Origin: Methylotenera sp.
GTDB lineage: Bacteria; Pseudomonadota; Gammaproteobacteria; Burkholderiales; Methylophilaceae
Length of the DNA: 55,826 nt
Reading direction: 5' to 3'
NCBI GenBank assembly: GCA_030682715.1
Contig: JAUXNQ010000044.1
Coordinates: forward strand, 1-55,826
A program made the translations under genes and the position numbers. The notes under the pieces are model-generated. The model did no database searches and was not told the origin of the DNA. It saw only the letters and a program-made list of their open reading frames with translations. Positions 4,208 to 55,502 of this stretch are shown here, in pieces. Numbering within the stretch: the stretch's first letter is position 1; each line of letters begins with the position of its first letter.

Positions 4208-4597
4208 ATGGCACTTTCTATCACACCAAAAGCTGAAAAATTTATCGGACGCATGATTCGCTTTAATGGCGGCACGCCTGAACATGGTTTTAGACTCGTA
4301 GTCAGCCCTGGTGGCTGCTCTGGCTTGAGCTCTGAATTCACGGTAGAAGCTGGTCCACTCGCCGGTGACGCTGTTGTTGAAGCTAGCGGTTTGAAGTTGT
4401 TCTTACCTGCTGAATCACGCATCCTGTTAGAAGGCGCAACGATTGATTTTAAAGATACACCGATGGAATCAGGTCTAACCTTCATTACAGCACAAGGTGG
4501 CAACTGTGGCTGCAGTAGCAGTAGCGATAGTCATGGTGACCATTCACATGCAGGCCCTGCAACTGTGAGCATTGAAAGCATTCAACGTAAGCATTAA
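4208..4597 (+). CDS. HesB/IscA-like A-type Fe-S carrier of the nif cluster
   Basis: This 129-aa A-type protein carries the three conserved cysteines, C37 (GGCSG), C100 and C102 (NCGC). Family members bind and transfer Fe-S clusters. After CGC the tail is unusually rich in serine and histidine (SSSSDSHGDHSHAG) and could bind metal, which is inference. It starts 9 nt after fdxN within the nifB operon. It differs from the two A-type proteins of the isc operon at the other end of the window. Confidence 0.88.
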   Translation: MALSITPKAEKFIGRMIRFNGGTPEHGFRLVVSPGGCSGLSSEFTVEAGPLAGDAVVEASGLKLFLPAESRILLEGATIDFKDTPMESGLTFITAQGGNCGCSSSSDSHGDHSHAGPATVSIESIQRKH

Positions 4598-6476: not shown

Positions 6477-6824
6477 ATGATGGTCGCGCACATTCAAACT
6501 GATATTTGCCCTCATCCAAACGAGGTGGATCGCAAACGCATCGAAAAAACTTTGGCTGAGCGTGAGCGCTATAAATATGTGGCGCCCAAGGTTTTTCCTG
6601 ACATCGAAGGTTATCTAGTGCGTAGCCCATGCTGTTCAAGAAGTGTTGATCCTGAGGGCGGTGAAATTGATATTGCGCGCATTGAGTATCAATCTGGCGA
6701 TTTTTGGCGCCTATATCAGAAAGACGATGAAAATAATCGCTGGAAACCACATTCAGAATACCTAAGCCTCTCTCCCCTACTAGCTAGATTAATTGCTGAC
6801 CCTAAAAAGGAGTTTTGGCGTTGA
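6477..6824 (+). CDS. Conserved nif-cluster protein (DUF3024-like)
   Basis: This 115-aa protein has a central block reading SPCCSRSVDPEGGEIDIARI, followed by WRLY and a C-terminal PKKEFW. The order of motifs recalls DUF3024 proteins, from memory only. The vicinal cysteines could bind metal. Its stop codon overlaps the TTG start of nifS (TTGA), so expression is probably coupled to nifS. No function is known. Confidence 0.6.
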   Translation: MMVAHIQTDICPHPNEVDRKRIEKTLAERERYKYVAPKVFPDIEGYLVRSPCCSRSVDPEGGEIDIARIEYQSGDFWRLYQKDDENNRWKPHSEYLSLSPLLARLIADPKKEFWR

Positions 6825-7963
6825 CTAGCTATTACTTCGATAATAACGCAACAACACGGGTATTGCCCGAAGTGTTGAATGCTATGTTGCCTTGGTTTTC
6901 TGAGCATTATGGCAATGCTTCTAGCAGCCATCAATTTGGGCAGTTTGCGAAAGAAGCGCTAATGACTGCACGTGGCGCAATAGCTAAGTTTTTGTACGCC
7001 AGCCCAGCAGAGATTGTATTTACTAGCGGAGCAACAGAATCTAACCATATGGCGATTATGAGTGCGTTGGCTATGTACCCTACTCGCCACCGCATTGTAA
7101 CAAGCACTGTAGAACACTCATCGACATTACGATTGCTATATGAACTCGCTAAAACTGGCATAGAGGTCATTCAAGTCCCAGTCAATGCAAAGGGTGAGTT
7201 GGATTTAGCACAGTTAAAAGCGGCAGTAACAGCAGACACTGCACTTGTAACTTTAATGCATGCCAATAACGAAACAGGCGTGATATTTCCAATCGCTGAA
7301 GTTGCGAGAATTGCCCATGAGAAAGGCGCTTTATTTCATACCGATGCTGCTCAATCTGCTGGAAAAATTTCTATAGATGTGACGCAATTAGCTTGTGACT
7401 TTTTGTCGTTTTCAGGTCATAAAATTCATGCACCTAAAGGCATTGGTGTGCTGTTTGTGAAAAAAGGCATTTCAGCAAAACCGCTAATTTACGGGCATCA
7501 AGAACGTAATCGTCGCGGTGGTACAGAGAATCAAACTGGCATTATTGGGCTAGGTGTTGCCTGTCAACTTGCTCAACAAACTATTAATAACGCCAATTCT
7601 GCAATTTCAAATTTTCGTAATGAAATAGAACAAACCTTGGTTAAAGCACTGCCATTTGTCAGCGTGAATGGTGCTGAACCACGCGTACCGAATACTACAA
7701 ACCTGTGCTTTACAGGGCTTCATGGCGAAGAGTTACTCCATAAACTAAACAAAGCTGGTGTGATGGCGTCGCTCGGTAGCGCTTGCACTGCTGGCGGCAC
7801 TGATCCATCACATGTATTACTCGCAATGGGGCTGAATCGTGAGGATGCATTAAGTTCTTTACGCTTATCGCTTTCAAAAGAAACTACAGCAGATGATGTG
7901 AAAAAGTTGGTCGGCATTCTTACCCAAATCGCAACAGAAATGCGCTCACCAATCACAGCATGA
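6821..7963 (+). CDS. nifS: NifS cysteine desulfurase (TTG start)
   Basis: NifS is a PLP enzyme that takes sulfur from cysteine for nitrogenase clusters. This copy has 380 aa. The PLP lysine lies in SFSGHKIHAPKG and the mobile catalytic cysteine in GSACTAGG. The start is the TTG at 6821: AAGGAG at 6807-6812 lies 8 nt upstream of it, whereas the in-frame TTG at 6815 is too close. No nifU precedes it, which is unusual. The scaffold may come from the isc operon at 50146-55347. Confidence 0.95.
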   Translation: MTSYYFDNNATTRVLPEVLNAMLPWFSEHYGNASSSHQFGQFAKEALMTARGAIAKFLYASPAEIVFTSGATESNHMAIMSALAMYPTRHRIVTSTVEHSSTLRLLYELAKTGIEVIQVPVNAKGELDLAQLKAAVTADTALVTLMHANNETGVIFPIAEVARIAHEKGALFHTDAAQSAGKISIDVTQLACDFLSFSGHKIHAPKGIGVLFVKKGISAKPLIYGHQERNRRGGTENQTGIIGLGVACQLAQQTINNANSAISNFRNEIEQTLVKALPFVSVNGAEPRVPNTTNLCFTGLHGEELLHKLNKAGVMASLGSACTAGGTDPSHVLLAMGLNREDALSSLRLSLSKETTADDVKKLVGILTQIATEMRSPITA

Positions 7964-11248: not shown

Positions 11249-11731
11249 TCAGCCCTCTTCAGACTGCATATGGGATTGTAGGTAATTGGGCAGGGTAACG
11301 TCCACAATCAACGTTTGCTGGGTTTCGAGCCAGTCAATCGCTTCTTCACATTGTTCCAGCAACTCCTCAAGTAAGTCACGGCTGACGTAATCTTGGAGCG
11401 CTTCGCACAGCGCAACAGCCTCAATTAGTAAAGGACGCTGGATATCCTTCTCGTACTTCAAGTCACCATTCAGGCATTCGATGACATGCTCGCCAATCAT
11501 TAACTTACCTAAGTTCTGCAGATTAGGTAGCCCTTCCAGAAACAGAACACGCTCAATCACTTCGTCGGCTTCTTTCATCACCCGAATCGACTGTTTGTAT
11601 TGGTAATCATTGAGTTTCTCTAGCCCCCAGTTGCGAAACATGCGGGCATGCAGAAAATATTGGTTGATAGCTGTCAGCTCGTTCGTGAGTACTTTATTAA
11701 GAATATCAATAACTTTTTTTTCGCCTTTCAT
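11249..11731 (-). CDS. bfr: Bacterioferritin subunit, haem-binding, ferroxidase-deficient
   Basis: This 160-aa subunit keeps the haem ligand Met52 and Glu18 and Glu94. The other di-iron ferroxidase ligands are changed: position 51 is Val, 54 is Glu, and the E127/H130 equivalents (128 and 131 here) are Cys and Ala. By itself it should not oxidise iron efficiently. It lies 11 nt downstream of the second bfr gene, which has the opposite defect, so a mixed 24-mer is likely. Confidence 0.9.
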
Positions 11732-11742
11732 GGTTTTTTCTC

Positions 11743-12222
11743 CTAGAGTCCTGGCTTCATCTGGCTTTGTTGGTAATTGGCCAGGCCGACCAGATCAATC
11801 AAGCGAACCTGCTGCTCCAGCCAGTAGGCATGGTCCATTTCCGTATCATCCAGTTGCACTTTCAGCATGTCGCGCGACACGTAATCCTGAGCGATTTCAC
11901 ATGCAGCAATGGCTTTCTTTAGCTCGTCGACAACATGATATTCCACCGCCAGATCGGCCTTGAGCATTTCCGGCACCGTCTCGCCCACTGTGATAGGCAG
12001 GCGCTTGACTACGTTAGGCGCGCCTTCCAAAAAAAGAATACGCTGAATCAAGGCGCGCGCATGCAAACGCTCATGTTCAGACTCATGCAGAGATTTTTCT
12101 GCGAGATGCGCGAAGCCGAAGTTGGCGTACATTTCTCCATGGATTAGATATTGATCTACTGCGGCAAGCTCCCCGGCCAACAAATCGTTGAGTATTCCTA
12201 TGATATTTTTATCGCCTTGCAT
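11743..12222 (-). CDS. bfr: Bacterioferritin subunit, ferroxidase-competent, lacking haem ligand
   Basis: This 159-aa subunit has all the ferroxidase ligands: Glu18, Glu51, His54, Glu94 and the ExxH pair (Glu128, His131, offset by one). The haem Met52 is replaced by Arg. It is preceded by a strong GGAGG and is the first gene of the pair. It probably co-assembles with the neighbouring haem-type subunit. Confidence 0.9.
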
Positions 12223-15593: not shown

Positions 15594-16502
15594 TTAAGAC
15601 ATCTTGACTGCGTGGCCACCAAAACCATTACGCATCATAGATAGTAGTTTGTAACTATAACCAGTGGCATCTTGGCTTCTGAAACGAGCTTGTAATGCCA
15701 ATGTGAGTACTGGTGCAGCGACCCCCTGTTCTACAGACTCCATCACAGTCCAACGTCCTTCGCCAGAGTCTGCAACATAAGGAGCAATACCAGTGAGTTC
15801 TTGGTCGTCTTTCAATGCGTCTGCTGTCAGGTCGAGCAACCAGCTGCGTACTACTGAGCCATGGCGCCACAATTCGGTGATTTCCGCAAGGTTTAGATTG
15901 AACTCTTCTTTACCTTTAATGAGGTCTAAGCCTTCAGCCATCGCCTGCATCATGCCGTACTCAATACCGTTATGGATCATTTTGGTAAAGTGACCAGAAC
16001 CAACTGGTCCTACGTGTGCCCAACCTCTATTTTCTGCTGGTGCTAATGCTTTTAATATTGGTGTAACTACTGCCGCAACTTCTTTAGTTCCTCCTACCAT
16101 GAGACAGTAACCATTTTCCAAGCCCCAAACACCACCTGAAGTACCAGAATCCATGAAGCCAATACCATGTTCCGCAAGCATTGCACCTCGGCGTTGGCTA
16201 TCTTTATAGTTAGAGTTTCCACCGTCAATAATAATGTCGCCTTTATTAAGTATAGGAATTAAATCTTTGATTTGATTTTCAGTGATGTCTCCAGCTGGCA
16301 ACATCATCCAAACAATTTTTTGTCCTGATAATTTAGACACTGCATCAGCTACAGAACCTGCAGCAATCAAGCCTTCTTCTTTCGCTAACTTATTGACTGT
16401 ATCGGCATTAAAGTCAAAACCAACGACTTCTATCTTATGTCGTAGCAAACGTGTAGCCATATTACCGCCCATTTTTCCCAAACCTATCATTGCTAATTTC
16501 AT
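15594..16502 (-). CDS. gnd: 6-phosphogluconate dehydrogenase, decarboxylating (short type)
   Basis: This enzyme converts 6-phosphogluconate to ribulose 5-phosphate and CO2, with NAD(P)H. The 302-aa short form shows the Rossmann motif GLGKMGGN, then DGGNSNYKDS, SGTSGGVWGLENG and KMIHNGIEYGMM. GGAG precedes the ATG. It heads the trHb-draTG-nifO operon with its own -24/-12 promoter, so it appears to belong to the nif regulon and could supply reductant. It is central to sugar-phosphate oxidation in methylotrophs, which is a weak hint about the host. Confidence 0.93.
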   Translation of the reverse strand: MKLAMIGLGKMGGNMATRLLRHKIEVVGFDFNADTVNKLAKEEGLIAAGSVADAVSKLSGQKIVWMMLPAGDITENQIKDLIPILNKGDIIIDGGNSNYKDSQRRGAMLAEHGIGFMDSGTSGGVWGLENGYCLMVGGTKEVAAVVTPILKALAPAENRGWAHVGPVGSGHFTKMIHNGIEYGMMQAMAEGLDLIKGKEEFNLNLAEITELWRHGSVVRSWLLDLTADALKDDQELTGIAPYVADSGEGRWTVMESVEQGVAAPVLTLALQARFRSQDATGYSYKLLSMMRNGFGGHAVKMS

Positions 16503-16565: not shown

Positions 16566-16581
16566 AGCAAAGGTGATGCCA
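16566..16581 (-). promoter_or_regulatory. Sigma-54 promoter of the gnd-trHb-draTG-nifO operon
   Basis: On the minus strand the sequence reads TGGCAT-CACCT-TTGCT, keeping GG and GC at the correct spacing. Transcription should start near 16554, about 50 nt before gnd. The TGT-N10-ACA site at 16725-16740 lies about 150 bp upstream and could serve this promoter and nifH. Confidence 0.75.
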
Positions 16582-16724: not shown

Positions 16725-16740
16725 TGTAAGGTTTACGACA
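16725..16740. promoter_or_regulatory. NifA upstream activator sequence between gnd and nifH
   Basis: TGT-AAGGTTTACG-ACA is a perfect NifA site. Its distance to the nifH -24 element is about 80 bp. A weaker partner, TGT-TCAATACAAC-ACC, lies at 16695-16710. Both could act in both directions. Confidence 0.85.
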
Positions 16741-26026: not shown

Positions 26027-26422
26027 ATGCTACAGCAGCCCATTCATATTTTAAGTAAAGCTAGTCAGGTGCATCAGCATCCTGAACATCAACATGAGGA
26101 TGAATACGATGACATCGTACTGTTGCTAAAAGATCATGGACGTGATGATAGCGATGAAACACTGCATGTCGTGGCTTACGTGGCTGATGCCTGTATGGGA
26201 AGCAATCATTTATGGCAAGACATGCAGCTGCCAAATCGCAAAGCGTTGTCGGAATTAATGCAGCATTTTTTCCCAACACTTGCCGCTAAAAATACTGGCG
26301 ATATGAAATGGAAGAAGTTTTTTTACAAGCAATTATGTGAACGTGAAGACATCTTTATCTGCAAATCACCTTCTTGTGGTGATTGTGTCGATTACAATAA
26401 ATGCTTTGGTGCTGAGGACTAG
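26027..26422 (+). CDS. nifQ: NifQ, molybdenum donor for FeMo-co
   Basis: NifQ carries a Mo-Fe-S cluster and gives molybdenum to NifEN. This 131-aa copy ends in the defining C-X4-C-X2-C-X5-C motif (C112, C117, C120, C126). It is shorter than many NifQ proteins, and its N-terminus is rich in histidine (HQHPEHQHE). The upstream gene is fdxB. Confidence 0.93.
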   Translation: MLQQPIHILSKASQVHQHPEHQHEDEYDDIVLLLKDHGRDDSDETLHVVAYVADACMGSNHLWQDMQLPNRKALSELMQHFFPTLAAKNTGDMKWKKFFYKQLCEREDIFICKSPSCGDCVDYNKCFGAED

Positions 26423-29472: not shown

Positions 29473-29763
29473 TTATGCAAGCACCTCTATCGAGAGGTCT
29501 TCTTCACCCACAATTGATTGGCAAGCTAAGCGAGATTTAGTGCCAACGCCGATAGTGGCATCGAGCATCTCGTTTTCCGCCCGCTGTATTTTAGATAAGC
29601 TTTTGCGCCCTTCTAATACTGAGATATGGCAAGTACCACATTCCGCTTTTCCATCACACTTATGTGCGATATTTTCGCCACCAGCCAGTAATGCAGAAAG
29701 AATACTGCTACCAGTAGCAGCTTGATAAGTTTTGCCAGATGGCTGAACGGTAAGGACGGGCAT
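29473..29763 (-). CDS. [2Fe-2S] ferredoxin, sigma-54 controlled
   Basis: This 96-aa plant-type ferredoxin has CDGKAECGTC and RLACQSIVG. It is a single-gene unit with its own -24/-12 promoter at 29856-29871. The gene is convergent with the nifE operon. It probably donates electrons in N2 fixation. Confidence 0.9.
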   Translation of the reverse strand: MPVLTVQPSGKTYQAATGSSILSALLAGGENIAHKCDGKAECGTCHISVLEGRKSLSKIQRAENEMLDATIGVGTKSRLACQSIVGEEDLSIEVLA

Positions 29764-29855: not shown

Positions 29856-29871
29856 AGCAAACTGCGTGCCA
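29856..29871 (-). promoter_or_regulatory. Sigma-54 promoter of the ferredoxin gene
   Basis: On the minus strand TGGCAC-GCAGT-TTGCT matches the consensus well. No TGT-N10-ACA site was seen within about 150 bp upstream, so activation by a distant site or another activator is possible. Confidence 0.82.
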
Positions 29872-43389: not shown

Positions 43390-44526
43390 TTAATGTTGAG
43401 TGGTCTGAAATATTTTTAAGTACATTTGCCGCAATTCATCGGCTTGCGGAATGCGTTTAGTGTTATTAGCAAACTGGCGAATCTGCGCCAGCAACATTGC
43501 TGCTTCGTTTTCTAATAAATGAATGCCTAATTGCGCGTAGGCGTATTTCAAGCCATGTCCGCCAGAATGCTTACCCAGCACCAGTTGGCGGTCACGTCCG
43601 ACATCTGCGGGGTCGAAGCTTTCATAAGTGCTAGGATCTTTTAGCAAACCATCCACATGCAAGCCAGACTCGTGTGTAAAAACCGCCTCTCCTACAATGC
43701 TCTTATTGGCTGCAACAACACGACCAGACGCCTCTGCCACCAGTTTAGAAATTGATGGGAAACCATGCATATCAATGCCCATATCTACGCCATGAATCCG
43801 CCACAAGGCCATCACCACCTCTTCAAGTGGAGCATTGCCTGCTCGCTCGCCTAAGCCATTCACAGTGGTATTCACATGGCTGGCGCCAGCCATAATGGCG
43901 GCAATAGAGTTAGCAGTCGCCAGACCTAAATCGTCATGCGCATGAATCTCAATTTCCATATCAGTCGCAACGACTAGCGTTTCAATTCTTGAATGTGTCA
44001 CAAACGGGTCTAGCACGCCCAAGGTATCCGCATAACGAAAACGGCTTGCACCTGAGCGCTGAGCAATATCTAAAAGCTGTAACACAAAGGATTGGTCTGC
44101 ACGAGAAGCATCTTCACCACCCACGGAAACCTGCAAACCTAAATCACAGGCTTTTTGCACAAAATACGATACTTGTTCAAGTACCCAATCACGGTTTTTC
44201 CGCAATTTGCGTTCAATATGTAAATCAGAAACTGGAATGGATAAATTAACCATATTCACGCCAGTTTTCAGGCAAGCGGCTAAATCGCTCTCTGTCATCC
44301 GCCCCCACACCATCAGGCGGCTGTTTAAATTCAAATCCACAATAGACTGAATATCTTCAATCTCCGCAGCACCCATGGCAGGAATGCCAATTTCAAGTTC
44401 CTGCACACCGATGTTATCCAGCGAAAGTGCAATTAATTGCTTTTCTGCACGAGTAAACGCCACGCCTGCGGTCTGCTCACCGTCACGTAAGGTCGTATCA
44501 TTCACAATTGGCGTAATCGTTTGCAC
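43390..44526 (-). CDS. nifV: NifV homocitrate synthase
   Basis: NifV makes homocitrate, the organic part of FeMo-co. The 378-aa protein has [16 protein letters not shown] and the metal-binding [13 protein letters not shown], and ends within the usual length. It has its own promoter and pairs with nifW. Confidence 0.96.
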
Positions 44527-44574: not shown

Positions 44575-44628
44575 ATGAAAAATCTGTTTATTTTCAACTA
44601 GTTATATATATTTATAGTTTGTATGGTT

Positions 44629-44735: not shown

Positions 44736-45341
44736 ATGACTCAACAACGCTACCAATCCGCTATCGCGGCATTTGACAAAACCAATGCAGAAGACCCTAA
44801 CATCGAAATATTTAACGGTAAGGAATATCCAAAAGAACTGCTCTATGCAATGCGCATGACTGAGATGCAAGAGATTTATGCACCAGAAGCGTCAGAAACA
44901 TTAAAGCTGGCGGTACGTGCGCAACATATTCAGCGTTGGAAAAGTCCACGCAGTGACTTTTCTATGAATAGGCAAGGTTATTTGCAATGGCGCACTGGCT
45001 TGTATAAATTTCACGCGGAAACAGCTGGTAATTTAATGAAATCGGGGGGCTATGACGATGCGACCATTGAGCGCGTTCAAGCGAACATCGGCAAAAAAGG
45101 CCTGAAAATCAATCCAGAAACACAATTGACTGAAGACGTAGCGGGCTTGGTATTTATCCAATATTATATGTTTGGATTCGCTTCTAACCACCCTGAGTAT
45201 GACGAAGAAAAATGGATAAAAATCATCAAGAAAACATGGCTAAAGATGTCGCCACGAGCGCATGAGTTTGCCTTAGCTGGAAAAATACAACTGCCAGAAG
45301 CCTTGGTACCGCTCATACTAAAAGCGATTCAACCCGCATAG
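44736..45341 (+). CDS. DUF4202 protein
   Basis: This 201-aa protein has the family signature YPKELLYAMRMTEM, AVRAQHIQRWKSPRSDF and GYLQWRTGLYKFHAETAG. DUF4202 proteins are of unknown function, with an HD-like pattern of His residues. It is divergent from nifV and shares its regulatory region. Confidence 0.85.
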   Translation: MTQQRYQSAIAAFDKTNAEDPNIEIFNGKEYPKELLYAMRMTEMQEIYAPEASETLKLAVRAQHIQRWKSPRSDFSMNRQGYLQWRTGLYKFHAETAGNLMKSGGYDDATIERVQANIGKKGLKINPETQLTEDVAGLVFIQYYMFGFASNHPEYDEEKWIKIIKKTWLKMSPRAHEFALAGKIQLPEALVPLILKAIQPA

Positions 45342-45356
45342 TTTAAGCGTAATAAA

Positions 45357-45374
45357 CTAGTCTTTCGAGACTAG
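45357..45374 (+). terminator. UUCG-loop hairpin after DUF4202
   Basis: CTAGTCT (45357-45363) pairs with AGACTAG (45368-45374) around a TTCG loop. No T-run follows. It may end or stabilise the DUF4202 transcript. Confidence 0.5.
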
Positions 45375-45385
45375 CTTCAAAACAC

Positions 45386-45401
45386 TGGCACACCTAATGC
45401 T
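45386..45401 (+). promoter_or_regulatory. Possible sigma-54 promoter of GST
   Basis: TGGCAC-ACCTA-ATGCT has the conserved GG and GC but one altered base in the -12 box, like the nifV promoter. It lies 60 nt before the GST start. No NifA site was seen nearby. Confidence 0.5.
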
Positions 45402-45460
45402 TACCCTGTTGTTACCGACCCATTTTGTCGGCAATACAACATAGTCCGGAAAGCAACCCC

Positions 45461-46078
45461 ATGAAATTTCACATGACGCCAGGTTCATGCTCCACTGGCA
45501 TTCACATTCTGCTCGAAACGCTGGAACTGCCATTCGAGGTTTATTTAGTCAACCTGATGGCTGGCGATCAATTTAAGCAGGAATACCTGGCGATTAACTC
45601 CAAAGCTACGGTTCCGACACTGGTACGCGATGACGGAACATCTATCACCGAGTTTCAGGCCATTGCCTGGTGGTTGGCGCGGCGTTACCCCAAAGCCAAG
45701 CTGTTACCTGATGATATTGATGGCGAAACGCGCGTGCTGGAAACCATGAATTACGCTGTCGGCACGATACACGGGCAAGGTTATACGCGCATTTTCACTA
45801 CATCCAACTACAGCGCTAACGTGGCTGATCACGCAGCTATTCAAGCGCGAGGTCGCGAGATTGTCGAACAAGGTTTTGCTGTGATGAATGAAGTGCTAGC
45901 AGGTAAAGACTATGTGATCGGTAATTTCAGCATTGCTGATGCAGCCTTGTTTTACGTTGAATTCTGGGCTGACAAAATCAAACTTACGTTGCCGCCAAAC
46001 TGCCAAGCGCATTACCAGCGCATGCTGCAACGGCCTGTGGTGAGACAAGTGCTACTGGAGGAAGGTTATCGGATGTAA
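45461..46078 (+). CDS. Glutathione S-transferase-like protein
   Basis: This 205-aa protein begins MKFHMTPGSCSTGIHILLET and has the thioredoxin-like segment ATVPTLVRDDGTSITEFQAI followed by a helical domain (VIGNFSIADAALFYVEFW). It may conjugate glutathione or reduce disulfides. The ATG at 45461 follows a weak GGAAAG. Its link to N2 fixation is positional. Confidence 0.88.
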   Translation: MKFHMTPGSCSTGIHILLETLELPFEVYLVNLMAGDQFKQEYLAINSKATVPTLVRDDGTSITEFQAIAWWLARRYPKAKLLPDDIDGETRVLETMNYAVGTIHGQGYTRIFTTSNYSANVADHAAIQARGREIVEQGFAVMNEVLAGKDYVIGNFSIADAALFYVEFWADKIKLTLPPNCQAHYQRMLQRPVVRQVLLEEGYRM

Positions 46079-46088
46079 TGAAAGGCAC

Positions 46089-46109
46089 TTAAGCATGATT
46101 TTTGCTTAA
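46089..46109 (+). terminator. Hairpin after GST
   Basis: TTAAGCA (46089-46095) pairs with TGCTTAA (46103-46109). There is no long T-run, so this is only a possible transcript end. Confidence 0.35.
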
Positions 46110-46159
46110 ACAGTATTAATTGCCATAAAACCCTACATTCACGACAAACGAGACAATTC

Positions 46160-47050
46160 ATGAGCATCATCGCAATTGCAAGTCGCGCGCATCCTTACTT
46201 TCCACTGATCGTGCTAATGAACCATGAAGGTCAGCATGACCACGCCACAACGGCCGCCGCATGGTGGCCTGATGCGCCCCATTGTTTTGCTGGGCGCGAT
46301 GAACCCAATGATGGCACTTGGTTTGGCATCACACGTGAAGGCCGTTTTGCGGCGGTAACGTCTTTTCGTGACAATCAGCCTATTGACCCTAGCCTACCCC
46401 CAATTGAACAACTCACGCTAGATTTTTTGGCTTCAGAAGATGCGCCAGTAACGCACGTGCGGCAGTTTCAACGTAACCGTGGCACTCACCCGCCGTTTAA
46501 CTTACTGGTCGGTACAACACGCCAAGTGTATTACGCTGGCACCAACACGCGCCTGCCGCTGGCGGTAACGCATGGCGTGCATACGATTTCTAACGGTTTA
46601 TTAGACGAGCGCTGGCCGAAAAACGCAGAACTCGAACAATTGCTAGGCGCGTATTTGCTTAGTAATGGCGGTTTTAGCATTCCGCTTGCTGCTTTTCCTA
46701 GACTGGATTCATCCCCAGCACGCGGCGCTAGTGCTTTACCAAAACCAAGCACTAGCGAACTCAGTGTAGACGATATTATCGCCGCAGGCTTTGCCATGTT
46801 GGCAGACCGCACTACTTATAGCAGTGGCTTGCCTAATACTGGCGTGGATAAAGATGAAGAAGCGCGCCTTTCAGCCTGTTTTGTATTGGGTAAAGAGCAT
46901 GGCACGCGTTCAAGCGCTGTGCTGATTATGGAACGTGACGGTAGTGTGCGGTTTGAAGAGCGTAGCTACGATGTGGCTGGCAATGAGACCAATCGCGTGC
47001 TTGAAAACTGGAACATGGACGCATCGGTATTTTCTGGCGGTGCCGATTAA
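46160..47050 (+). CDS. NRDE/TANGO2-family protein
   Basis: This 296-aa protein resembles the NRDE family in length, in GTWFGITREGRFAAVTSFRD and in HTISNGLLDERWPKNAELEQ. The usual N-terminal MC is MS here, and the NRDE block reads NHEG. The family is linked to haem handling in animals, with unknown function in bacteria. It lies 9 nt before an AAA+ gene. The block is more GC-rich than its neighbours. Confidence 0.75.
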   Translation: MSIIAIASRAHPYFPLIVLMNHEGQHDHATTAAAWWPDAPHCFAGRDEPNDGTWFGITREGRFAAVTSFRDNQPIDPSLPPIEQLTLDFLASEDAPVTHVRQFQRNRGTHPPFNLLVGTTRQVYYAGTNTRLPLAVTHGVHTISNGLLDERWPKNAELEQLLGAYLLSNGGFSIPLAAFPRLDSSPARGASALPKPSTSELSVDDIIAAGFAMLADRTTYSSGLPNTGVDKDEEARLSACFVLGKEHGTRSSAVLIMERDGSVRFEERSYDVAGNETNRVLENWNMDASVFSGGAD

Positions 47051-47059
47051 GCGGAGTCG

Positions 47060-48760
47060 ATGATGAAACTTCAAATCGAGCGACCTTATGCGGAAGCCAT
47101 TGTAGATAAGTTCCCTGCGCTCATTGCGTTGAAGGAACAATTGCGGTTTGGCAATCATATCGAGATTCCAGTGAGTCAGCTCACCAAACCAGAGCTGGAC
47201 TTTCTGGTTGGTCTGTATCAACTGGCAGGGCCAGAAATGCGTGGTCGTGCCGCACAGTTGCTCACTTTGCAACGTGCGGTGGACGATGATGGCGTACGCT
47301 TTAAGGCTGATTATTTAGAAGCGATAGTGCCAGCAATAGCGGGCTATTTGCTAGTCGATGCGATACGCGGCTGGCTGTTTAATGTGAATGCGGCTGGTAA
47401 GCCACTGGCGTATTTGGTGACGCGGCTAGACTACACACCGCAGTCCAACGATGAAACTGGTAAGGTATATATCGAGCTAAAAGCCAATGCCAAGGCGGCG
47501 CTAGCGAATGTAACGCTACGAATATCTGCCGTAGACATTGTCGGCAAAACCATCAGCGAGATTTTTGCCGACAAAGGTTACCTGAAAGAAACCCCCGAAT
47601 TAATCGCCAGTTACGACACCACCGTAGAACATTATTTTGACTGGCGTGCACAGTATGGCGCGCAGTTTTCCGCCAGCGGCACAGGCTTTTATGCTGAAGA
47701 CCCAACTTCCAGCCATCGCAACACGGATTGGGCGCGCAAGGATGTGATCGTGCTATCAGCCAATGGCATGGCGGCACGGCTGGTGAATGATGAAAGTATT
47801 ATCGCCAACCGTGCAACTACATTGGATGCGACTGGCGACATTCTCGGCCAATACTTAAGCAAAGCCGCCAAGAGCAATAAATACGATGCTGAAGATGAAG
47901 TCAAGCAATCGCAAGCCGCAATCCCCAAAGGCATGTTCACGCAACTGCCTGTGCATGGCTACATTTTGATGTTCCACCTCGATTTGCATCACTATTTATG
48001 GGTGCATGTGGATGATATGCAGCCTTATGAGTATCAGCCTGATCTCAAACAAAAGCTGATATTGCCACCCGAACAAACCGACCTGATAGACATACTCACC
48101 GCCGAGATGGACGTGCTGATGGATGACATTGTTGCAGGCAAATCAGGCGGCACTACGGTGTTGTGCGCTGGACCTGCTGGTGTGGGTAAAACCCTCACGG
48201 CTGAAGTGTATTCTGAAATTATCCGCAGGCCTTTATACCGTGTACATTCCGGCCAATTAGGGCTGAACGTGGCGGCAATGGAAACCGCGCTTAAAGATGT
48301 GCTGACCCGCGCCCAGCGCTGGGGTGCAGTCATGCTGATTGATGAGGCCGATGTGTATATCAAACGCCGCGATGACGACATGACCATGAATGCCGTGGTT
48401 GGCGTGTTTTTGCGCGTGCTGGAGTATTTCAACGGCCTGCTGTTTCTCACCACCAATCGCGTGGATGACATCGACGAAGCCATTGTTTCGCGCTGCATTG
48501 CCATGATTAAGTTTTACCCGCCAGATGCCGAAGCCCGCGCCAAAATCTGGCGCGTAATGACAGATCAGTTTGGCTTGAATGTGGAAGATGCGCTCATTTC
48601 CGAACTCGCCACGACTTTCCCACTAGCCAGTGGTAGAGACATTAAGGGCTTAACCAAACTCACAGCAAAATTCTGCAGCCATAAATCTGTGTCGCCGACC
48701 ATAGACGTATTCAAGCGCTGCTCGGTGTTTCGCGGCATGGATTTGGAGCGTGTAGCTTGA
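47060..48760 (+). CDS. AAA+ ATPase (CDC48/FtsH-like single AAA module)
   Basis: This 566-aa protein has an unrecognised N-terminal region of about 340 aa and a C-terminal AAA domain. Walker A is GPAGVGKTLT (371-380), Walker B VMLIDEAD (424-431) and an arginine-finger region follows (DEAIVSRC). It probably remodels proteins. It may form an operon with the NRDE gene and the chimeric gene. Confidence 0.85.
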   Translation: MMKLQIERPYAEAIVDKFPALIALKEQLRFGNHIEIPVSQLTKPELDFLVGLYQLAGPEMRGRAAQLLTLQRAVDDDGVRFKADYLEAIVPAIAGYLLVDAIRGWLFNVNAAGKPLAYLVTRLDYTPQSNDETGKVYIELKANAKAALANVTLRISAVDIVGKTISEIFADKGYLKETPELIASYDTTVEHYFDWRAQYGAQFSASGTGFYAEDPTSSHRNTDWARKDVIVLSANGMAARLVNDESIIANRATTLDATGDILGQYLSKAAKSNKYDAEDEVKQSQAAIPKGMFTQLPVHGYILMFHLDLHHYLWVHVDDMQPYEYQPDLKQKLILPPEQTDLIDILTAEMDVLMDDIVAGKSGGTTVLCAGPAGVGKTLTAEVYSEIIRRPLYRVHSGQLGLNVAAMETALKDVLTRAQRWGAVMLIDEADVYIKRRDDDMTMNAVVGVFLRVLEYFNGLLFLTTNRVDDIDEAIVSRCIAMIKFYPPDAEARAKIWRVMTDQFGLNVEDALISELATTFPLASGRDIKGLTKLTAKFCSHKSVSPTIDVFKRCSVFRGMDLERVA

Positions 48761-48773
48761 GGCTAACTAGCAC

Positions 48774-49604
48774 ATGAAAAACAAACTAGACTGGTCAGCC
48801 TACGATAGCTACGGTGAAGGAGACGCCTACGCGCAGATTCCAGCCGAAGGTGGCGCTTACGGCAAGGCAGCCTCATTGTGCATAGGCAGCCGCCAGTGCC
48901 AGCGCACGGACATCGGCGTGATGTGCCCAAGCTTTCGTATAACACACGACGATGCGCACTCCACACGGCACAGAGCAGCCACACTCAAAGCTGCACTTAA
49001 CGGCGAATATGGTAAGAATCCTTTTTTAGCCCAATTATTTGGCATTCAAGCGCAGGATGGCGAACTTCATTATCAAGATTGGGCAAAGGAAAATTATACT
49101 TGTTCCGCACTTGATCAAATACCGCCAAGCAGTCAGCCAATTTACGGTAGCCGCCATCTGCGTGATTCATACTGGAACGGTAAATTATTTTTAGGCGGTG
49201 CAGAAACAGCCACACATGCAGGTGGATATTTGGAAGGTGCGCTAGATGCCGCTACTAGACTAGTTCGTATGTTATCGCCTAACGACTTGCTAAAAACGCT
49301 TAACGCAGACAATAACGCCAGTCTGAGCCATTTTGGAAGCTGGTTATCCACGAAACGCAGCCATGTATTGGCACACTACCGTAGCCACCTAAACCGTTAC
49401 ATGACCTTGCAATTAAAAGAGCAATTAACCCAGCGCGCATTGCTGGACACCGTTGAGCAGATTTATAGCGAAGCCATAGAAAAACTGAATAGCCTACCAC
49501 TCAATACGCGTGATGTCACCATAGACAAAGGCCGCTCAGCACTGACGCCAGTCGTGCTATCACACTTCAATGGAATCAATCAGGACTTGGTAGAAACTGC
49601 TTAG
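48774..49604 (+). CDS. Chimeric protein: 4Fe-4S oxidoreductase segment plus flavin-amine-oxidase C-terminus
   Basis: This 276-aa protein has Cys36, Cys42 and Cys51 in CIGSRQCQRTDIGVMCPSF, then HSTRHRAATLKAALNGE, as in [Fe-S]/FAD oxidoreductases. Residues about 100-167 (DWAKENYTC, GKLFLGGAETATHAGGYLEG) match the C-terminal end of flavin amine oxidases. The FAD-binding N-terminus of both families is missing. It looks like a fusion of two gene fragments or a degenerate gene; expression is uncertain. Confidence 0.6.
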   Translation: MKNKLDWSAYDSYGEGDAYAQIPAEGGAYGKAASLCIGSRQCQRTDIGVMCPSFRITHDDAHSTRHRAATLKAALNGEYGKNPFLAQLFGIQAQDGELHYQDWAKENYTCSALDQIPPSSQPIYGSRHLRDSYWNGKLFLGGAETATHAGGYLEGALDAATRLVRMLSPNDLLKTLNADNNASLSHFGSWLSTKRSHVLAHYRSHLNRYMTLQLKEQLTQRALLDTVEQIYSEAIEKLNSLPLNTRDVTIDKGRSALTPVVLSHFNGINQDLVETA

Positions 49605-49751
49605 GAGTTTAACCGTAACTCATGCGCTATTTCCAACTTTCCAGAAGAAAATGAACCTGCGGAAGAGTATCAAGAGGCGATTCGACTTGATCTGCTTGTT
49701 GCCTGGCGAGAGTTCGCACTATCTGTAAATGATACGTTGCTGACACGCTAG
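49605..49751 (+). pseudogene. In-frame open stretch after the TAG stop of the chimeric gene
   Basis: The reading frame continues for 48 more codons past the TAG at 49602-49604 to a second TAG at 49749-49751. The peptide looks protein-like, for example EYQEAIRLDLLVAWREFAL. No ATG start precedes it. It may be a remnant, or the gene may once have been longer. Confidence 0.3.
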
Positions 49752-49782
49752 TTGTTGATAAAACTGTATTCAGGAGAAATAT

Positions 49783-50100
49783 ATGAGCTATATCACGTTA
49801 TGCAAACACAAAAACATGATGGAAGGCGAACTAGCCGCATTCAGCACCGATGATGGTGAAGTGATGCTAGTCTGGCCTGATGGTGGTGAGCTAAAAGCCT
49901 TTCAAGGCACTTGCCCGCATCAAGACGTGCCGCTATGGAGTACATTCAATGGTCGCATCGTCACCTGCCAATTTCACAATTGGGTATTCGATGGTCGTAC
50001 AGGTAAAGGTTTAAGCCCTACTGGCTGCGAATTAAAACAATATCCGCTTCGCATAGAGGATGGCATGGTACAAGTTAATCTAATGAGTGGTGAACCTTAG
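49783..50100 (+). CDS. Rieske [2Fe-2S] ferredoxin
   Basis: This 105-aa protein has the Rieske ligands CPH (Cys44, His46) and CQFH (Cys62, His65) in TCPHQDVPL and CQFHNWVFDG. It is soluble, with no oxygenase partner nearby, and is the type found near nif genes. AGGAGA precedes the start. Confidence 0.9.
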   Translation: MSYITLCKHKNMMEGELAAFSTDDGEVMLVWPDGGELKAFQGTCPHQDVPLWSTFNGRIVTCQFHNWVFDGRTGKGLSPTGCELKQYPLRIEDGMVQVNLMSGEP

Positions 50101-50145: not shown

Positions 50146-50499
50146 CTATTCATGCTCACGTGCATGATTGAGGCTGTATCGAGGTAATTCCACCACTAAA
50201 TGCGTCTGCCCTACCTTCACTTGGCAAGATAAGCGAGAAGTTGGAGTTAAGCCCCAAGCTTTGTCTAACTGGTCTTCTTCTTCATCTGTAGCGGCATTTA
50301 GTGATTTGTAGCCTTCACGAATGATGATATGACAGGTGCTGCATGCGCTTACGCCATCGCAGGCGTGTTCAATTTCAACTCCAGCATTTAGCAAGGCATC
50401 GCAAAGCACTTTGCCAGGCTTAATTTGCAACTCCATACCATCGGGGCAAGTGTCTGGATTTGGCAATACAGTGACTTTAGTTAGACTGATTTGACTCAT
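50146..50499 (-). CDS. fdx: [2Fe-2S] ferredoxin of the isc operon
   Basis: This 117-aa ISC-type ferredoxin has [11 protein letters not shown] and RLSCQVKV and ends the isc operon, overlapping hscA by 4 nt. ISC ferredoxin donates electrons for cluster assembly on IscU. Confidence 0.92.
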
Positions 50500-52388
50500 A
50501 TATTAATGCTTTCAATTTGTTTGCCTGAGAGTGCGTTGTTTATCGAAAGGTCCATACGGCGGTTTGCAAAGGTTGTGGTGGCTTCATTTAACTCAGTAGT
50601 GGCTTGGCGTAGCGTTTGTAAGCTATTAGCGTCACCAAGAATAAGCAGTTCTGCCAACTCATAAATTTTCACCCAAACCACATCCCATTCAGCTTTGCTT
50701 AAAAGCTCATGTCCGCTTTCGGCCATTGCAGTTTCAGTAGCATCTAATAACTGACGGGCTTCAACCTGCGCCTCACGCAAGGCTCGCATGTCTTTATCGT
50801 GTGCGGCGTTGGCAATACCCGCTGAAAGCATTTGGGTGATTTCAGTATCAGTCAAGCCATAAGAAGGTTTTACGGTGATTTGCGATTCATGCCCTGTCGT
50901 TTGTTCGCGCGCAGAGACTGACAACAAGCCATCCGCATCCACTTGAAAAGTCACGCGTATACGTGCTGCACCAGCCACCATTGGCGGAATGCCACGTAAT
51001 TCAAAACTAGCTAATGAACGGCATTCTGAAACCAGCTCGCGCTCACCCTGCACCACATGAAAGCTCATGGCAGTTTGGCCGTCTTTAAAGGTGGTAAAGT
51101 CTTGCGCACGTGCTGCGGGAATCGTGACATTGCGCGGAATAATCTTTTCGCTTAAGCCGCCCATCGTTTCAATACCCAATGAAAGTGGAATGACATCCAG
51201 TAGTAGTAATTCGTTACCATCGTGATTACCTGCCAGCGCATTGGCTTGTATAGCTGCGCCTAGCGCCACGACTTTATCTGGATCTAGGTTAGTCAGTGGT
51301 TCACGATAAAAGAACTCGCCTACTGCTACTCTTAAATGCGGCATACGTGTTGCACCGCCCACCAGCACCACGCCTTGTACGTCTTCCATTTGCAGATCAG
51401 CATCGCGCAAGGCTCGGCGCACAGGGCTGAATGTTTTGCTTAATAATGACTTAGTCAGCGCAATAAATATTTCACGGCTAAGTATGGCATTTACAGTCGA
51501 TTTATCAGCCAAAGCGCATGAAATCTCAGTCACAGCATCATCCGTCAAGCGCTCTTTAGCGAGGCGAGATTCAGTTAACAATAAACGAGTATCTTCTGCA
51601 CTCAAGTTGCTCAACTTAAGCGTGCTCATCAACCAATCAAAAATTGCACGGTCAAAATCATCACCACCAAGCGCAGAATCGCCACTGGTTGCCAGCACTT
51701 CAAACACGCCGCGCGTTAAACGTAGAATCGAAAAGTCAAAAGTACCGCCACCTAAATCATATACACAGTAAATACCTTCAGAGGCATTATCCAAGCCATA
51801 AGCAATTGCGGCGGCAGTTGGCTCATTGAGCAACCTTAAAACGGATATACCCGCTAAACGGGCAGCATCTTTGGTTGCTTGGCGCTGGGCATCATCAAAA
51901 TAGGCAGGCACTGTAATAACCGCGCCAGATAGCTCGCCACCTAAGCTTTCTTCTGCGCGTAAACGCAATACTTTTAGAATTTCAGCAGAAATCTCAACAG
52001 GGCTTAGTTCACCTATCACTGTCTTCAGTTTGACCATGCCTTTGGATTCGGCACCTGTAGATTCTACAAATTGATATGGCATGCTGGCAGCGTCAGCAAT
52101 GTCTTCTATGCCACGCCCCATAAAGCGTTTTACCGAAACTATAGTGTTATGTGGATCTTTAGCAGCATTGCTACGTGCATCCCAGCCTACATCCACCACG
52201 CCATCTGCCTGATAATGCACGACTGACGGTAGCAATGTACGTCCTGCATCATCTGGCAACGCAACAGCTATGCCGCTACGTACAGAGGCCACTAGTGAAT
52301 GGGTTGTACCTAAGTCTATACCAACCGCCAACCTATGCTGATGCGGTGCGGCGCTTTGACCTGGTTCAGTAATCTGTAAAAATGCCAT
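50496..52388 (-). CDS. hscA: HscA, Hsp70-type chaperone for IscU
   Basis: This 630-aa Hsp70 has [29 protein letters not shown] and [10 protein letters not shown]. It recognises the LPPVK motif of IscU, present here (residues 99-103). It lies 5 nt after hscB. Confidence 0.95.
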
Positions 52389-52393
52389 TTATT

Positions 52394-52924
52394 TTAGCTA
52401 CTAATCTTATCTAATGCTTCGCCAATTTCTAAGCGTAGTTTTTCATAAAAACGTAATTCATTCACGCGTAATTCTGCTGCTGCAAAATCACCCTGCAAAT
52501 CTAAAGTTGCGGCTAACTCGTTTACTTGCAGTGTAATCTTATGTTTTAAGCGTTTTGATAATGCTTCTAAAACAACCACATCTCGACAAGCTGTAGCTTC
52601 TTCAATCGCCTCCCGCCATTCCATTTGCGCCATTAAAAAGCTGTTAGAAAGGGCTTGGGCAGTTTCTGTTTTACCTGATAGGTTAATCAAAAATTGCGCG
52701 CGGCTAGTCGGGTTACGCAAAGTTTGATAGCCATCGTTAATTAAAGTAGATTGTTGTAAAGCAATGCGTTGTTCTGATTGCGTGTTGCTTGCGTGTTTAT
52801 CTGGGTGTGCTTCAGACTGCAACTGGCGGAAAGCACGCTCTAAGCTATTTAAATCGATACTAAAGCGAGGCGCCAAGCCAAACAGTTCGAAATAATTAGT
52901 TTCAGTCAAGGTTTGCATATCCAT
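52394..52924 (-). CDS. hscB: HscB, J-domain co-chaperone
   Basis: This 176-aa protein has an N-terminal J domain with HPD (SEAHPDKH) and a helical C-terminal domain that binds IscU. The ATG at 52924 overlaps the iscA stop (TAATG), which argues against longer starts. Confidence 0.93.
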   Translation of the reverse strand: MDMQTLTETNYFELFGLAPRFSIDLNSLERAFRQLQSEAHPDKHASNTQSEQRIALQQSTLINDGYQTLRNPTSRAQFLINLSGKTETAQALSNSFLMAQMEWREAIEEATACRDVVVLEALSKRLKHKITLQVNELAATLDLQGDFAAAELRVNELRFYEKLRLEIGEALDKISS

Positions 52925-53247
52925 TAAACGGTAAAACTCTCTCCACAACCGCAGTTAGCCGTGGCATTCGGATTGTTAAACTTAAAACCTTCGTTTAGCC
53001 CTTCTTTGGCATAATCCAGCTCAGTGCCATCCATGTATACCAAGCTTGTTGGGTCAACTAACACCTTAACCCCATTGCTTTCAAAAATCATATCTTCTGG
53101 AGCAGCTTCATCCACAAACTCTAAGGTATAAGCCATGCCTGAGCAGCCTGAAGTTTTAACGCCTAAACGCAAACCAATGCCTTTGCCACGGCTATCTAAA
53201 AATTTTTGCACGCGTGCTGCAGCAACTGTCGTTAAAGTAACGGCCAT
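52924..53247 (-). CDS. iscA: IscA, A-type Fe-S carrier
   Basis: This 107-aa protein has the conserved cysteines in SGCSGMAY and NCGCGESF. The length and order suit IscA. It is followed at once by hscB. Confidence 0.93.
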
Positions 53248-53256
53248 ACTAATCTC

Positions 53257-53634
53257 CTAAACCGAAAATGAACTACCACAGCCACAAGTAGCTGTAGCAT
53301 TGGGGTTGGTTATCACGAAACGTGAGCCTTCCAAGCCTTCTTGATAATCAATCGTAGCACCTACTAAATATTGATAGCTCATTGCATCTACCAATAAAGT
53401 AACGCCTTCTTTTTCTAATGCCAAATCATCTTCTGCCACTTGGTCGTCAAAAGCAAAACTGTATTGAAAACCTGAGCATCCGCCACCCGTTACGTAGACT
53501 CGTAATTTGAGTGATGCATCACCTTCTTCAATAAGCATTTCACTTACTTTACCAGCAGCATTTGTAGTAAAAATTATCGGTGCCAGAGCCGAATCAGCAA
53601 GCTCGGTTGTTTCGATTGTAGCGGTATCAGACAT
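53257..53634 (-). CDS. Second A-type carrier (ErpA-like)
   Basis: This 125-aa protein has [10 protein letters not shown] and [10 protein letters not shown]. It has an N-terminal extension of about 20 aa and a long middle. It lies between iscU and iscA, so the operon carries two A-type genes. Confidence 0.88.
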
Positions 53635-53659
53635 GTCTATACTCCATCAAGATTAAGGT

Positions 53660-54079
53660 TTAAGCAGCAGATTTACAGGCGTTGTAGCCATCGGCTTCAG
53701 TCATATTTTTACTACGATAATCAGAGATAGCTGCGCGAATCGCATCTTCAGCCAACACTGAACAGTGGATTTTTACAGGCGGTAAAGCGAGCTCTTCTGC
53801 TATATGTGTATTTTTAATATCCAAGGCTTGGTCTAGCGTTTTGCCTTTTAGCATCTCAGTCACCAATGATGATGAAGCAATCGCAGAGCCACAGCCGTAC
53901 GTTTTGAACTTGGCATCTTCAATAAAACCTGCGTCATTCACCTTGATTTGCAGTTTCATTACATCGCCACAAGCTGGCGCACCAACCATGCCAGTGCCAA
54001 CATCTTGGTCTTCTGCATCAAACGCACCAACATTGCGTGGATTTTCGTAGTGATCTAATACTTTATCGCTATATGCCAT
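53660..54079 (-). CDS. iscU: IscU scaffold
   Basis: This 139-aa scaffold has Cys37, Cys63 and Cys106 and the LPPVK motif (99-103) for HscA. It is IscU-type and lacks the ferredoxin-like and Nfu domains of NifU. It lies 21 nt after iscS. Confidence 0.95.
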   Translation of the reverse strand: MAYSDKVLDHYENPRNVGAFDAEDQDVGTGMVGAPACGDVMKLQIKVNDAGFIEDAKFKTYGCGSAIASSSLVTEMLKGKTLDQALDIKNTHIAEELALPPVKIHCSVLAEDAIRAAISDYRSKNMTEADGYNACKSAA

Positions 54080-54099
54080 TTTGTTCTCCTAAATATGAA

Positions 54100-55347
54100 T
54101 TACGCTACAACAGCTTCAGGTTCGCGGTGCGACTCTGTGCCATGGACCCAACTCACAGAGGCAATATCAATGCCTGCTTTGAACATGTCCCATAACGGCG
54201 ATAAGTCCCGCAACTGCCCTACTTTATTCTTGATAAGATCGATCGCGTAATCAATGTCAGCTTCCGTGGTGTAGCGACCAATTGAAAAGCGTATGGATGA
54301 ATGCGCCAACTCGTCTTCTCGACCTATCGCACGAAGCACGTAAGATGGCTCTAAGCTAGATGAAGTACAAGCAGAGCCGCTGGAAACCGCAATGCCTTTA
54401 ACCGCCATCATGAGAGATTCCCCTTCAACGTAGTTAAAACTTACGTTGAGGTTGTGCGGTACGCGCTGAGCTAAATCACCATTAAGATAAGCTTCTTCAA
54501 CAGTAGAGAGACCCGCCCAAAGCTTATCTCGCAAGATTCTGATACGCGCGTTTTCTTCAGCCATTTCAGCTTTAGCGATGCTAAAGGCTTCACCCATGCC
54601 AACGATTTGATGTACAGGCAATGTGCCAGAACGGAAGCCGCGTTCATGTCCACCACCATGCATCTGTGCTTCAAGACGAATACGTGGCTTACGACAAACA
54701 TACAATGCTCCGATGCCTTTTGGACCATAAGTTTTATGAGCGGAAAAACTCATTAAATCGACGGGAAGTTTTTCAAGGTCAATTTCAACTTTACCAGTGG
54801 CTTGGGCTGCATCCACATGAAAAATGATGCCTTTTTCACGGCAGATATTGCCGATGGTAATAATGTCTTGAATAACGCCAATTTCGTTATTCACCAACAT
54901 CACAGAAACCACAATCGTATCTGGCTGAATGGCAGCTTTAAAAACTTCTATATCAACTAGGCCATTTTCTAACGGTGAAAGATAGGTAGCAGTAAAACCT
55001 TCACGCTCAAGTTCGCGAACGGTGTCTAACACAGCCTTGTGTTCAGTTTTTATGGTAATTAAATGCTTACCATTGGCTGCATAAAAATGCGCAGCACCTT
55101 TAATCGCCAGATTGTTTGACTCTGTAGCACCTGATGTCCAAACGATCTCTTTAGGGTCGCAATTAACTAACGAGGCCACCTGTTCGCGCGCCAAATCTAC
55201 CGCCGCTTCGGCATTCCAACCATATGCATGGCTGCGCGATGCAGGATTGCCATAAACCTCAGTTAAGTACGGAAACATTTTATTTGCCACGCGTAAATCG
55301 ACTGGTGTGGTGGCTGAATAATCAAGATAAATTGGCAAGTCAGTCAT
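54100..55347 (-). CDS. iscS: IscS cysteine desulfurase
   Basis: This 415-aa PLP enzyme has the Lys motif [12 protein letters not shown] and catalytic Cys in [10 protein letters not shown]. The ATG at 55347 has GGAG upstream. The C-terminus is a little longer than in E. coli IscS. It heads the isc operon under a sigma-54 promoter. No iscR precedes it. Confidence 0.94.
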
Positions 55348-55387
55348 GTGACACACTCCGTAATAGTTTGCTAGTTAAAACATAACT

Positions 55388-55403
55388 AGCAATCCGCATG
55401 CCA
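55388..55403 (-). promoter_or_regulatory. Sigma-54 promoter of the isc operon
   Basis: On the minus strand TGGCAT-GCGGA-TTGCT matches the -24/-12 consensus, with transcription expected near 55376. It implies NifA-dependent expression of iscS to fdx. Confidence 0.8.
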
Positions 55404-55486
55404 ATCAGAGCGAGGTGCGTAACTTAATGATTTTATTTAAATAAATATTTAAAACAAAATCCATGTAACAAATATATTGTAGGAAT

Positions 55487-55502
55487 TGTCGTGTTACTTA
55501 CA
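55487..55502. promoter_or_regulatory. NifA site upstream of iscS
   Basis: TGT-CGTGTTACTT-ACA is a perfect NifA site about 85 bp upstream of the isc -24 element, the usual distance. Confidence 0.82.

Follow-up and report, generated by a model that had tools for sequence, protein, structure and literature searches.

The window analysed here, that is the whole stretch of DNA, is contig C37 of a Methylotenera sp. assembly and comprises 55,826 bases; the assembly (G000) is 2.45 Mb in 67 contigs and 95.12% complete. Near the nif genes of the window a complete seven-gene operon, iscS-iscU-erpA-iscA-hscB-hscA-fdx, was found on the minus strand (55356-50146). Judged from its genes, promoter and distribution, the operon is probably a full iron-sulfur cluster (ISC) assembly system that was captured into the nif regulon and stands in for NifU. 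The arrangement recurs in many related bacteria, and 26 nif-type isc operons were found. A first-pass annotation of the window had proposed that a dedicated ISC system builds the nitrogenase clusters in place of NifU. The genomic tests agreed with this proposal, while its functional step is drawn from mutual exclusion with NifU, gene position and regulation.

All seven proteins scored above the NCBIfam cut-off of their own family in a profile search of the window proteins, and the gene content and order first read from the sequence were thereby borne out. HscB and IscA scored under the cut-off of a second, narrower NCBIfam model each. The cysteine desulfurase gene iscS (54100-55356) starts at GTG 55356 or ATG 55347, and its product reached 708 bits against TIGR02006 (cut-off 643). 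It is followed, all on the minus strand, by the scaffold gene iscU (53660-54079; 139 residues with an LPPVK motif; TIGR01999, 226 bits, cut-off 192), by an erpA-type gene for an A-type carrier, the second ErpA of the genome (53257-53634; NF010147, 183 bits, cut-off 117), and by iscA (52924-53247; TIGR02011, 178.5 bits, cut-off 150.6). Next come hscB (52394-52924; TIGR00714, 103 bits, cut-off 46.75), which overlaps the iscA stop and has a possible longer TTG start at 52948, hscA (50496-52388; TIGR01991, 861 bits, cut-off 708.55) and fdx for an ISC-type 2Fe-2S ferredoxin (50146-50499; TIGR02007, 157 bits, cut-off 132.1). Against the NifU_proper model the window IscU reached 146 bits (cut-off 273) and covered only model positions 3-130 of 290. 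No iscR was found in the 470 bases upstream of iscS to the contig end (55357-55826), and an IscR query gave no match in the upstream DNA of the same-genus loci L087 and L089, in line with the absence of iscR noted at first. That the operon in this genome bears a nif-type promoter without iscR was confirmed. By eye, the contig end (55753-55826) lies inside an open frame resembling the start of a transposase.

Upstream of iscS, the sigma-54 -24/-12 promoter element TGGCATgcggaTTGCT (55403-55388, minus strand) is a perfect match to TGGCAY-N5-TTGCW, which we take to be the consensus, with GG and GC as invariant positions. A putative NifA upstream activator site (55487-55502), palindromic and perfect for TGT-N10-ACA, the presumed NifA consensus, is located 99 bp before the -24 element; NifA activator sites lie some 80-150 bp upstream. 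The first-pass annotation had called a good promoter and a perfect NifA site at these positions, and both calls held. Between the two elements an IHF-like site, AATCATTAAGTTA (55420-55432, minus strand), differs by one mismatch from WATCAANNNNTTR, assumed here to be the IHF consensus. Both the invariant GG and GC and the activator-site spacing found in the window are those of the NifA/sigma-54 regulon. Seven perfect -24/-12 elements are present in the window compared to 0.06 expected from single-base shuffles, so a chance origin of the element of the operon is very unlikely.

The nif-type isc operons were picked by gene content and neighbourhood, and the promoter was not a criterion. Upstream DNA was available for 25 of the 26 (L106 was dropped because of a contig end), and some of these operons are near-duplicates (L161/L162, L115/L120). 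A -24/-12 element was present in all 25, perfect in 13, with one mismatch in 10 and with two in 2, and in 22 of them TGT-N10-ACA begins 82-104 bp ahead of it. In the four closest sequences the promoter elements are visibly conserved. An IHF-like site with at most one mismatch, on either strand between activator site and promoter, was found in 16 of the 25 operons compared to 4.1 expected from shuffles, and it is perfect in L007, L087 and L089. As the shuffle chance for the window alone was 0.355, the evidence for this site is its conservation. Housekeeping isc operons served as controls: a -24/-12 element with at most one mismatch was seen in 0/99 iscR upstream regions and 3/105 iscS upstream regions, and a two-mismatch element in a further 4 iscR and 14 iscS regions, some of these control regions possibly being shortened by contig ends. 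In genomes with NifU the corresponding numbers (at most one mismatch) were 0/16 and 0/16. The promoter layout conserved in 25 operons supports the predicted control of the nif-linked isc operon by NifA and sigma-54.

The search for a second isc operon headed by iscR was positive. It is located at C48, where cysE, iscR, a further desulfurase gene, iscS, iscU, iscA, hscB, hscA and fdx were named from homology and visual inspection; no erpA lies between iscU and iscA. Searches with PF01592 matched only the two IscU proteins of the assembly, PF01106 gave nothing over its cut-off, and no open frame combined the two domains. The absence of nifU, first noted for the window, was therefore also seen genome-wide, in that no NifU was detectable in the 95.12% complete assembly. 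PF01521 identified four A-type genes: the erpA of the operon, another erpA at C24 and two iscA genes. Two genomes of the genus that are absent from the nifD list have two each.

The distribution of the two systems was examined in 62 nif genomes. These were the 59 with a NifD (TIGR01282) match among 399 from the order, 56 of which exceeded the cut-off (G373 was counted only through a NifE-like match), together with three further genomes of the same genus. True NifU was defined as strong PF01592 and PF01106 matches in one open frame, and the nif-type isc operon by erpA between iscU and iscA. Four NifU loci out of 16 were read in context, as were 50 strong IscU copies of other genomes and the second copy of G000. 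NifU was present in 16 genomes, the nif-type isc operon in 19, and both in none (Fisher p 0.0013 for all 62 genomes and 9e-5 for the 50 with a strong IscU, kinship ignored). All 16 NifU genomes have a single strong IscU, which was read in context and stands in an iscR-headed operon without erpA; it is because this sole copy is of the housekeeping type in every case that no genome has both systems. For 17 of the 19 operons the nif link lies within the window or the fetched region. In G417 the operon is on the nifD contig, 33 kb, and the G122 copy, on a 3-kb contig, was assigned by gene order alone.

A second strong IscU, besides any NifU, was found in 16 of the 59 nif genomes compared to at most 3 of the 340 without nifD (Fisher 5e-12); the candidates among the latter are G159, G201 and G344. 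G030 has no strong IscU besides its nif-linked copy, the other PF01592 match being partial and weak. The same pattern was observed within the genus (52 genomes, 4 with nif), where two IscU occur in three of the four nif genomes and in 0/48 others; of these 48, 44 have one IscU and in 4 none was detected. Among the best 80 loci for the window IscU, a collection of named genomes added nif-type isc operons in HGW-Betaproteobacteria-1 (L007), Hydrogenophaga flava (L019) and Pseudacidovorax (L042).

Elsewhere in the class, 18 of 30 nif genomes have a frame of at least 300 residues strongly matching PF01592, the only domain tested there. Seven regions were read in context at this level (G591, G662, G705, G605, G716, G776, G580). 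Twelve genomes had no frame of that length; among them G469, G513, G524, G649 and G722 were left out of this reading and G668 was represented by a short piece only. The nif-type isc operon was present in four of the seven, G591 (L158), G705 (L160), G605 (L161) and G716 (L162). These four genomes, which lie outside the order, have no strong IscU other than the nif-linked one, which is accompanied by SufU-like matches of 92-99 bits. G605, the only one of the four scanned for suf genes, has sufB, sufC, sufD, sufS and sufU at another locus. G776 has a housekeeping isc operon and G580 an extra IscU without isc neighbours. In G662 (L159, around 9939) a lone IscU-type gene lies beside nifV; neither iscS nor any of the remaining isc genes was seen in the retrieved DNA, and the gene is perhaps a reduced form of the nif-type isc arrangement.

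The first-pass annotation had placed the operon next to nif genes. Near them it is, but not contiguous with them, as the nearest nif gene, nifV, starts 5.6 kb away and plus-strand genes intervene. In 18 of the 26 nif-type isc loci fdx is followed, on its own strand, by nifV and then nifW, and in 17 fixA comes next; fdx and nifV are separated by as little as a few hundred bases or as much as about 5.6 kb. In the other eight loci, either the retrieved DNA stopped short or no match to nifV was obtained. Among the four NifU loci read, L137 and L138 have an A-type gene, nifU, nifS, nifV, cysE and nifW in order, L139 has the same order without a cysE match, and L140 has the A-type gene, nifU and nifS only. 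In the 18 isc loci with nifV and nifW downstream, the nif-type isc operon occupies the slot that is held elsewhere by nifU-nifS. In the window, nifV (43390-44526, minus strand; named by eye, relatives matched by tblastn) has its own near-consensus element (44574, minus strand, one mismatch) and TGT-N10-ACA at 44620, 44629 and 44647. The plus-strand genes between nifV and the isc operon (44736-50100) encode DUF4202, TANGO2-domain, AAA ATPase, Rieske and uncharacterised proteins. Several of them were matched in L089, and the DUF4202 gene alone in L087.

A comparison of phylogenies had been called for, and the nif-linked proteins were found to branch apart from the housekeeping copy. A quick tree of joined IscS, IscU, IscA, HscA and Fdx was built from 58 rows (22 nif, 36 housekeeping; the four class-level operons were left out). 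None of the nif copies groups with the housekeeping copy of its own genome, and the nif/housekeeping label changes twice on the tree compared to 18 times when shuffled. The window copy groups with the nif copies of the same genus and of L007; on both groupings a recent duplication of the resident operon was rejected. The C48 operon groups with that of Methylophilus, the one genus by which its family is represented among the rows. When the nif copies were constrained to one clade, the likelihood was 8.8 units above that of the free tree, with a p value of 0.643 in the approximately unbiased test (p-AU). A single origin of the nif copies is thus compatible with the tree, though not proven by it.

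The A-type carrier of the operon groups with ErpA (fork support 93) and not with IscA or IscAnif, whereas the other A-type gene of the window (4208-4597) groups with nifU-linked carriers (support 94); this tree has few columns and many unresolved forks, and the forks at 93 and 94 are without a star. A derivation of the erpA-type gene from a nifU-linked carrier was thus unsupported. The LPPVK motif, presumably the recognition site of HscA, is kept in 26/26 nif IscU. Specific residues that would mark nif IscU or IscS were sought, and only weak differences appeared (1 and 4 positions, respectively). An extra cysteine in the C-terminal tail of nif IscU (22 of 26 operons; window 53660-53700), near the first central-domain cysteine of NifU, was rejected as a nif signature, being present in 11/39 other IscU proteins. 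In a second count it was found in 8/16 IscU of NifU genomes, in 3/3 f15 genomes without nif and in 1/20 other genomes without nif, and it also occurs in 6/77 named housekeeping IscU and in the IscU of G668. By this distribution the tail cysteine is partly a lineage trait.

Several observations weigh against the substitution of NifU by a dedicated ISC system. Fifteen of the 62 nif genomes lack NifU, and a single isc operon of the housekeeping type was detected in each, with no nif-type one; some of these genomes are near complete (G182, one contig and 100%; G062, G106, G306 and G278, 99-100%), the others being fragmented, and a dedicated nif-type isc operon is consequently not obligatory. A further 12 have neither system and no strong IscU, some with SufU-like proteins. 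The genome counts are not independent because the genomes are related, and in G429, a same-genus nif genome in 380 contigs, no nif-type isc operon was detected. A canonical activator site is missing at 3 of the 25 promoters (L019, L042, L125), and in the unconstrained quick tree 5 of the 22 nif rows are interspersed with housekeeping ones on weak forks.

The strongest rival is one of dosage, in which the second isc operon would raise the general iron-sulfur (Fe-S) capacity during nitrogen fixation, the housekeeping ISC system being equally able, with no specific substitution of NifU. The 15 genomes with a housekeeping-type operon only are consistent with this, as is the finding that nif and housekeeping IscU differ at a single, weakly discriminating position (122, R/K). 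In Azotobacter vinelandii, IscU is said to substitute in part for NifU, with regulation given as the main basis of their division of labour (PMC10669500). Dosage nevertheless appears unlikely, as the operon was found alongside NifU in none of the 62 nif genomes, sits in the slot of nifU before nifV and branches apart from the resident copy; moreover, in the four class-level genomes where the nif-linked IscU is the only strong one it provides no extra dose.

A nifS gene had been reported for the window. A nifS-like desulfurase gene is indeed found in the nifB region (6815-7963, plus strand) with TIGR03402 NifS as its best family, but it scored below the NifS cut-off (472.8 compared to 530.75 bits). 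Its retention although nifU is absent also counts against replacement of NifU, and it leaves room for another explanation, namely that the NifS-like protein and the housekeeping IscU supply nitrogenase while the nif-linked isc operon serves other Fe-S proteins of the nif cluster, such as ferredoxins and FixABCX. Several other Fe-S proteins are apparently encoded in the window. This explanation is very improbable, since the operon has its own IscS, the mutual exclusion is with NifU, and in A. vinelandii neither IscS nor NifS can stand in for the other, as PMC10669500 states. Least probable of all is that NifU is merely missing from a 67-contig, 95% complete assembly whose window contig stops 470 bp upstream of iscS, the isc operon accompanying it, because NifU was found in 0/19 genomes carrying the operon and the same-genus genomes G408 (99% complete) and G417 (100%) have the operon and no NifU C-terminal domain.

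If the operon replaces NifU, its action may be pictured as follows. When fixed nitrogen is scarce, NifA, presumably the product of the nifA gene at 502-2121 (plus strand; TIGR01817, 716 bits, cut-off 529), would bind at 55487-55502 and, aided by DNA bending at the IHF-like site, would activate the sigma-54 RNA polymerase at 55388-55403. The seven genes would then be transcribed as one operon together with the nif genes. The nif-linked IscS would hand sulfur to the nif-linked IscU, with electrons provided by the ISC ferredoxin, and HscA with HscB would release the clusters onto ErpA and IscA for delivery to nitrogenase proteins, for example NifH, NifB and NifQ as likely clients. The IscR-linked operon would serve the remainder of the cell. 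An hscB gene was found in 11 of the 26 nif-type operons, including that of the window, and not in the other 15, to which the housekeeping copy could supply HscB. Separate proteins would thus take the place of the three domains of NifU, i.e. scaffold, ferredoxin and Nfu carrier, the A. vinelandii protein being described as a combination of IscU-like, ferredoxin and Nfu domains (PMC10669500). NifQ of A. vinelandii was loaded better by NifU than by IscU (PMC11605450). NifQ is encoded in the window (26027-26422), and together with the scaffold findings in A. vinelandii a NifA-driven ISC operon would fit, with its scaffold, ferredoxin and carriers made individually in amounts that match nif expression. 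On a broader scale, we lean slightly towards a widespread 'nif-ISC' machine of single origin. An ISC operon that includes an erpA would have come under NifA/sigma-54 control a single time and, in several lineages of proteobacteria, would have taken over from NifU the role of scaffold dedicated to nitrogenase. The three fused domains of NifU would then be supplied by separate proteins, and expression, not the scaffold itself, would set scaffold specificity.

Compared to the housekeeping ISC operon (iscR-iscSUA-hscBA-fdx), the nif-type version shares machinery and gene order save for the added erpA. It differs in the lack of iscR, the sigma-54/NifA-type promoter, the position of erpA between iscU and iscA, the nif linkage and, in the 15 operons mentioned, the lack of a detected hscB. 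With the NIF system (A-type carrier, NifU, NifS) it has in common the slot before nifV-nifW, the NifA-type promoter and the presumed nitrogenase clients. Its scaffold, however, is a stand-alone IscU that lacks the central ferredoxin domain and the Nfu domain of NifU, and its carrier is of the ErpA type and not of the nifU-linked type (an IscAnif/ATC-III grouping was not found). A similar gene content was reported for the nif cluster of Rhodoferax antarcticus, where nifU is missing and iscU and two iscA lie within the cluster; its authors considered that more work would be needed to establish the significance, and the part of the account compared contains no promoter, phylogenetic or distribution analysis (PMC5374385). 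Paenibacillus polymyxa WLY78 is likewise a diazotroph without nifU that uses another Fe-S system, but this is SUF and not ISC, and its nifS-like and nifU-like genes are described as unassociated with the nif cluster (PMC8038749). A literature search, with most subscription journals outside its coverage, returned no description of a NifA-regulated isc operon and no comparative or regulatory account.

NifU is generally regarded as the Fe-S scaffold dedicated to nitrogenase and, in the engineering of nitrogen fixation, as a part to be transplanted. A recurring natural alternative made of ordinary ISC components would point to a scaffold that can be exchanged as long as it is co-regulated with nif, and would, if true, offer an alternative parts list for such engineering. 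Why NifU is a fused protein becomes testable by swapping, and diazotrophs can be missed by screens requiring nifU.

Other features were observed in the nif region. By eye, a 6-phosphogluconate-dehydrogenase-like gene (15594-16502) is divergent from nifH and has a perfect -24/-12 element at 16581 (minus strand); TGT-N10-ACA occurs at 16725 between this gene and nifH, and a globin-like gene follows. An open reading frame of 96 residues resembling a 2Fe-2S ferredoxin by eye (29473-29763) has a perfect -24/-12 element at 29871 (minus strand), with no TGT-N10-ACA close to this element. Two bacterioferritin-like genes are located at 11249-12222, with the Ferritin domain confirmed for 11743-12222 and the other gene named by eye; the pair is possibly an iron store for cluster assembly.

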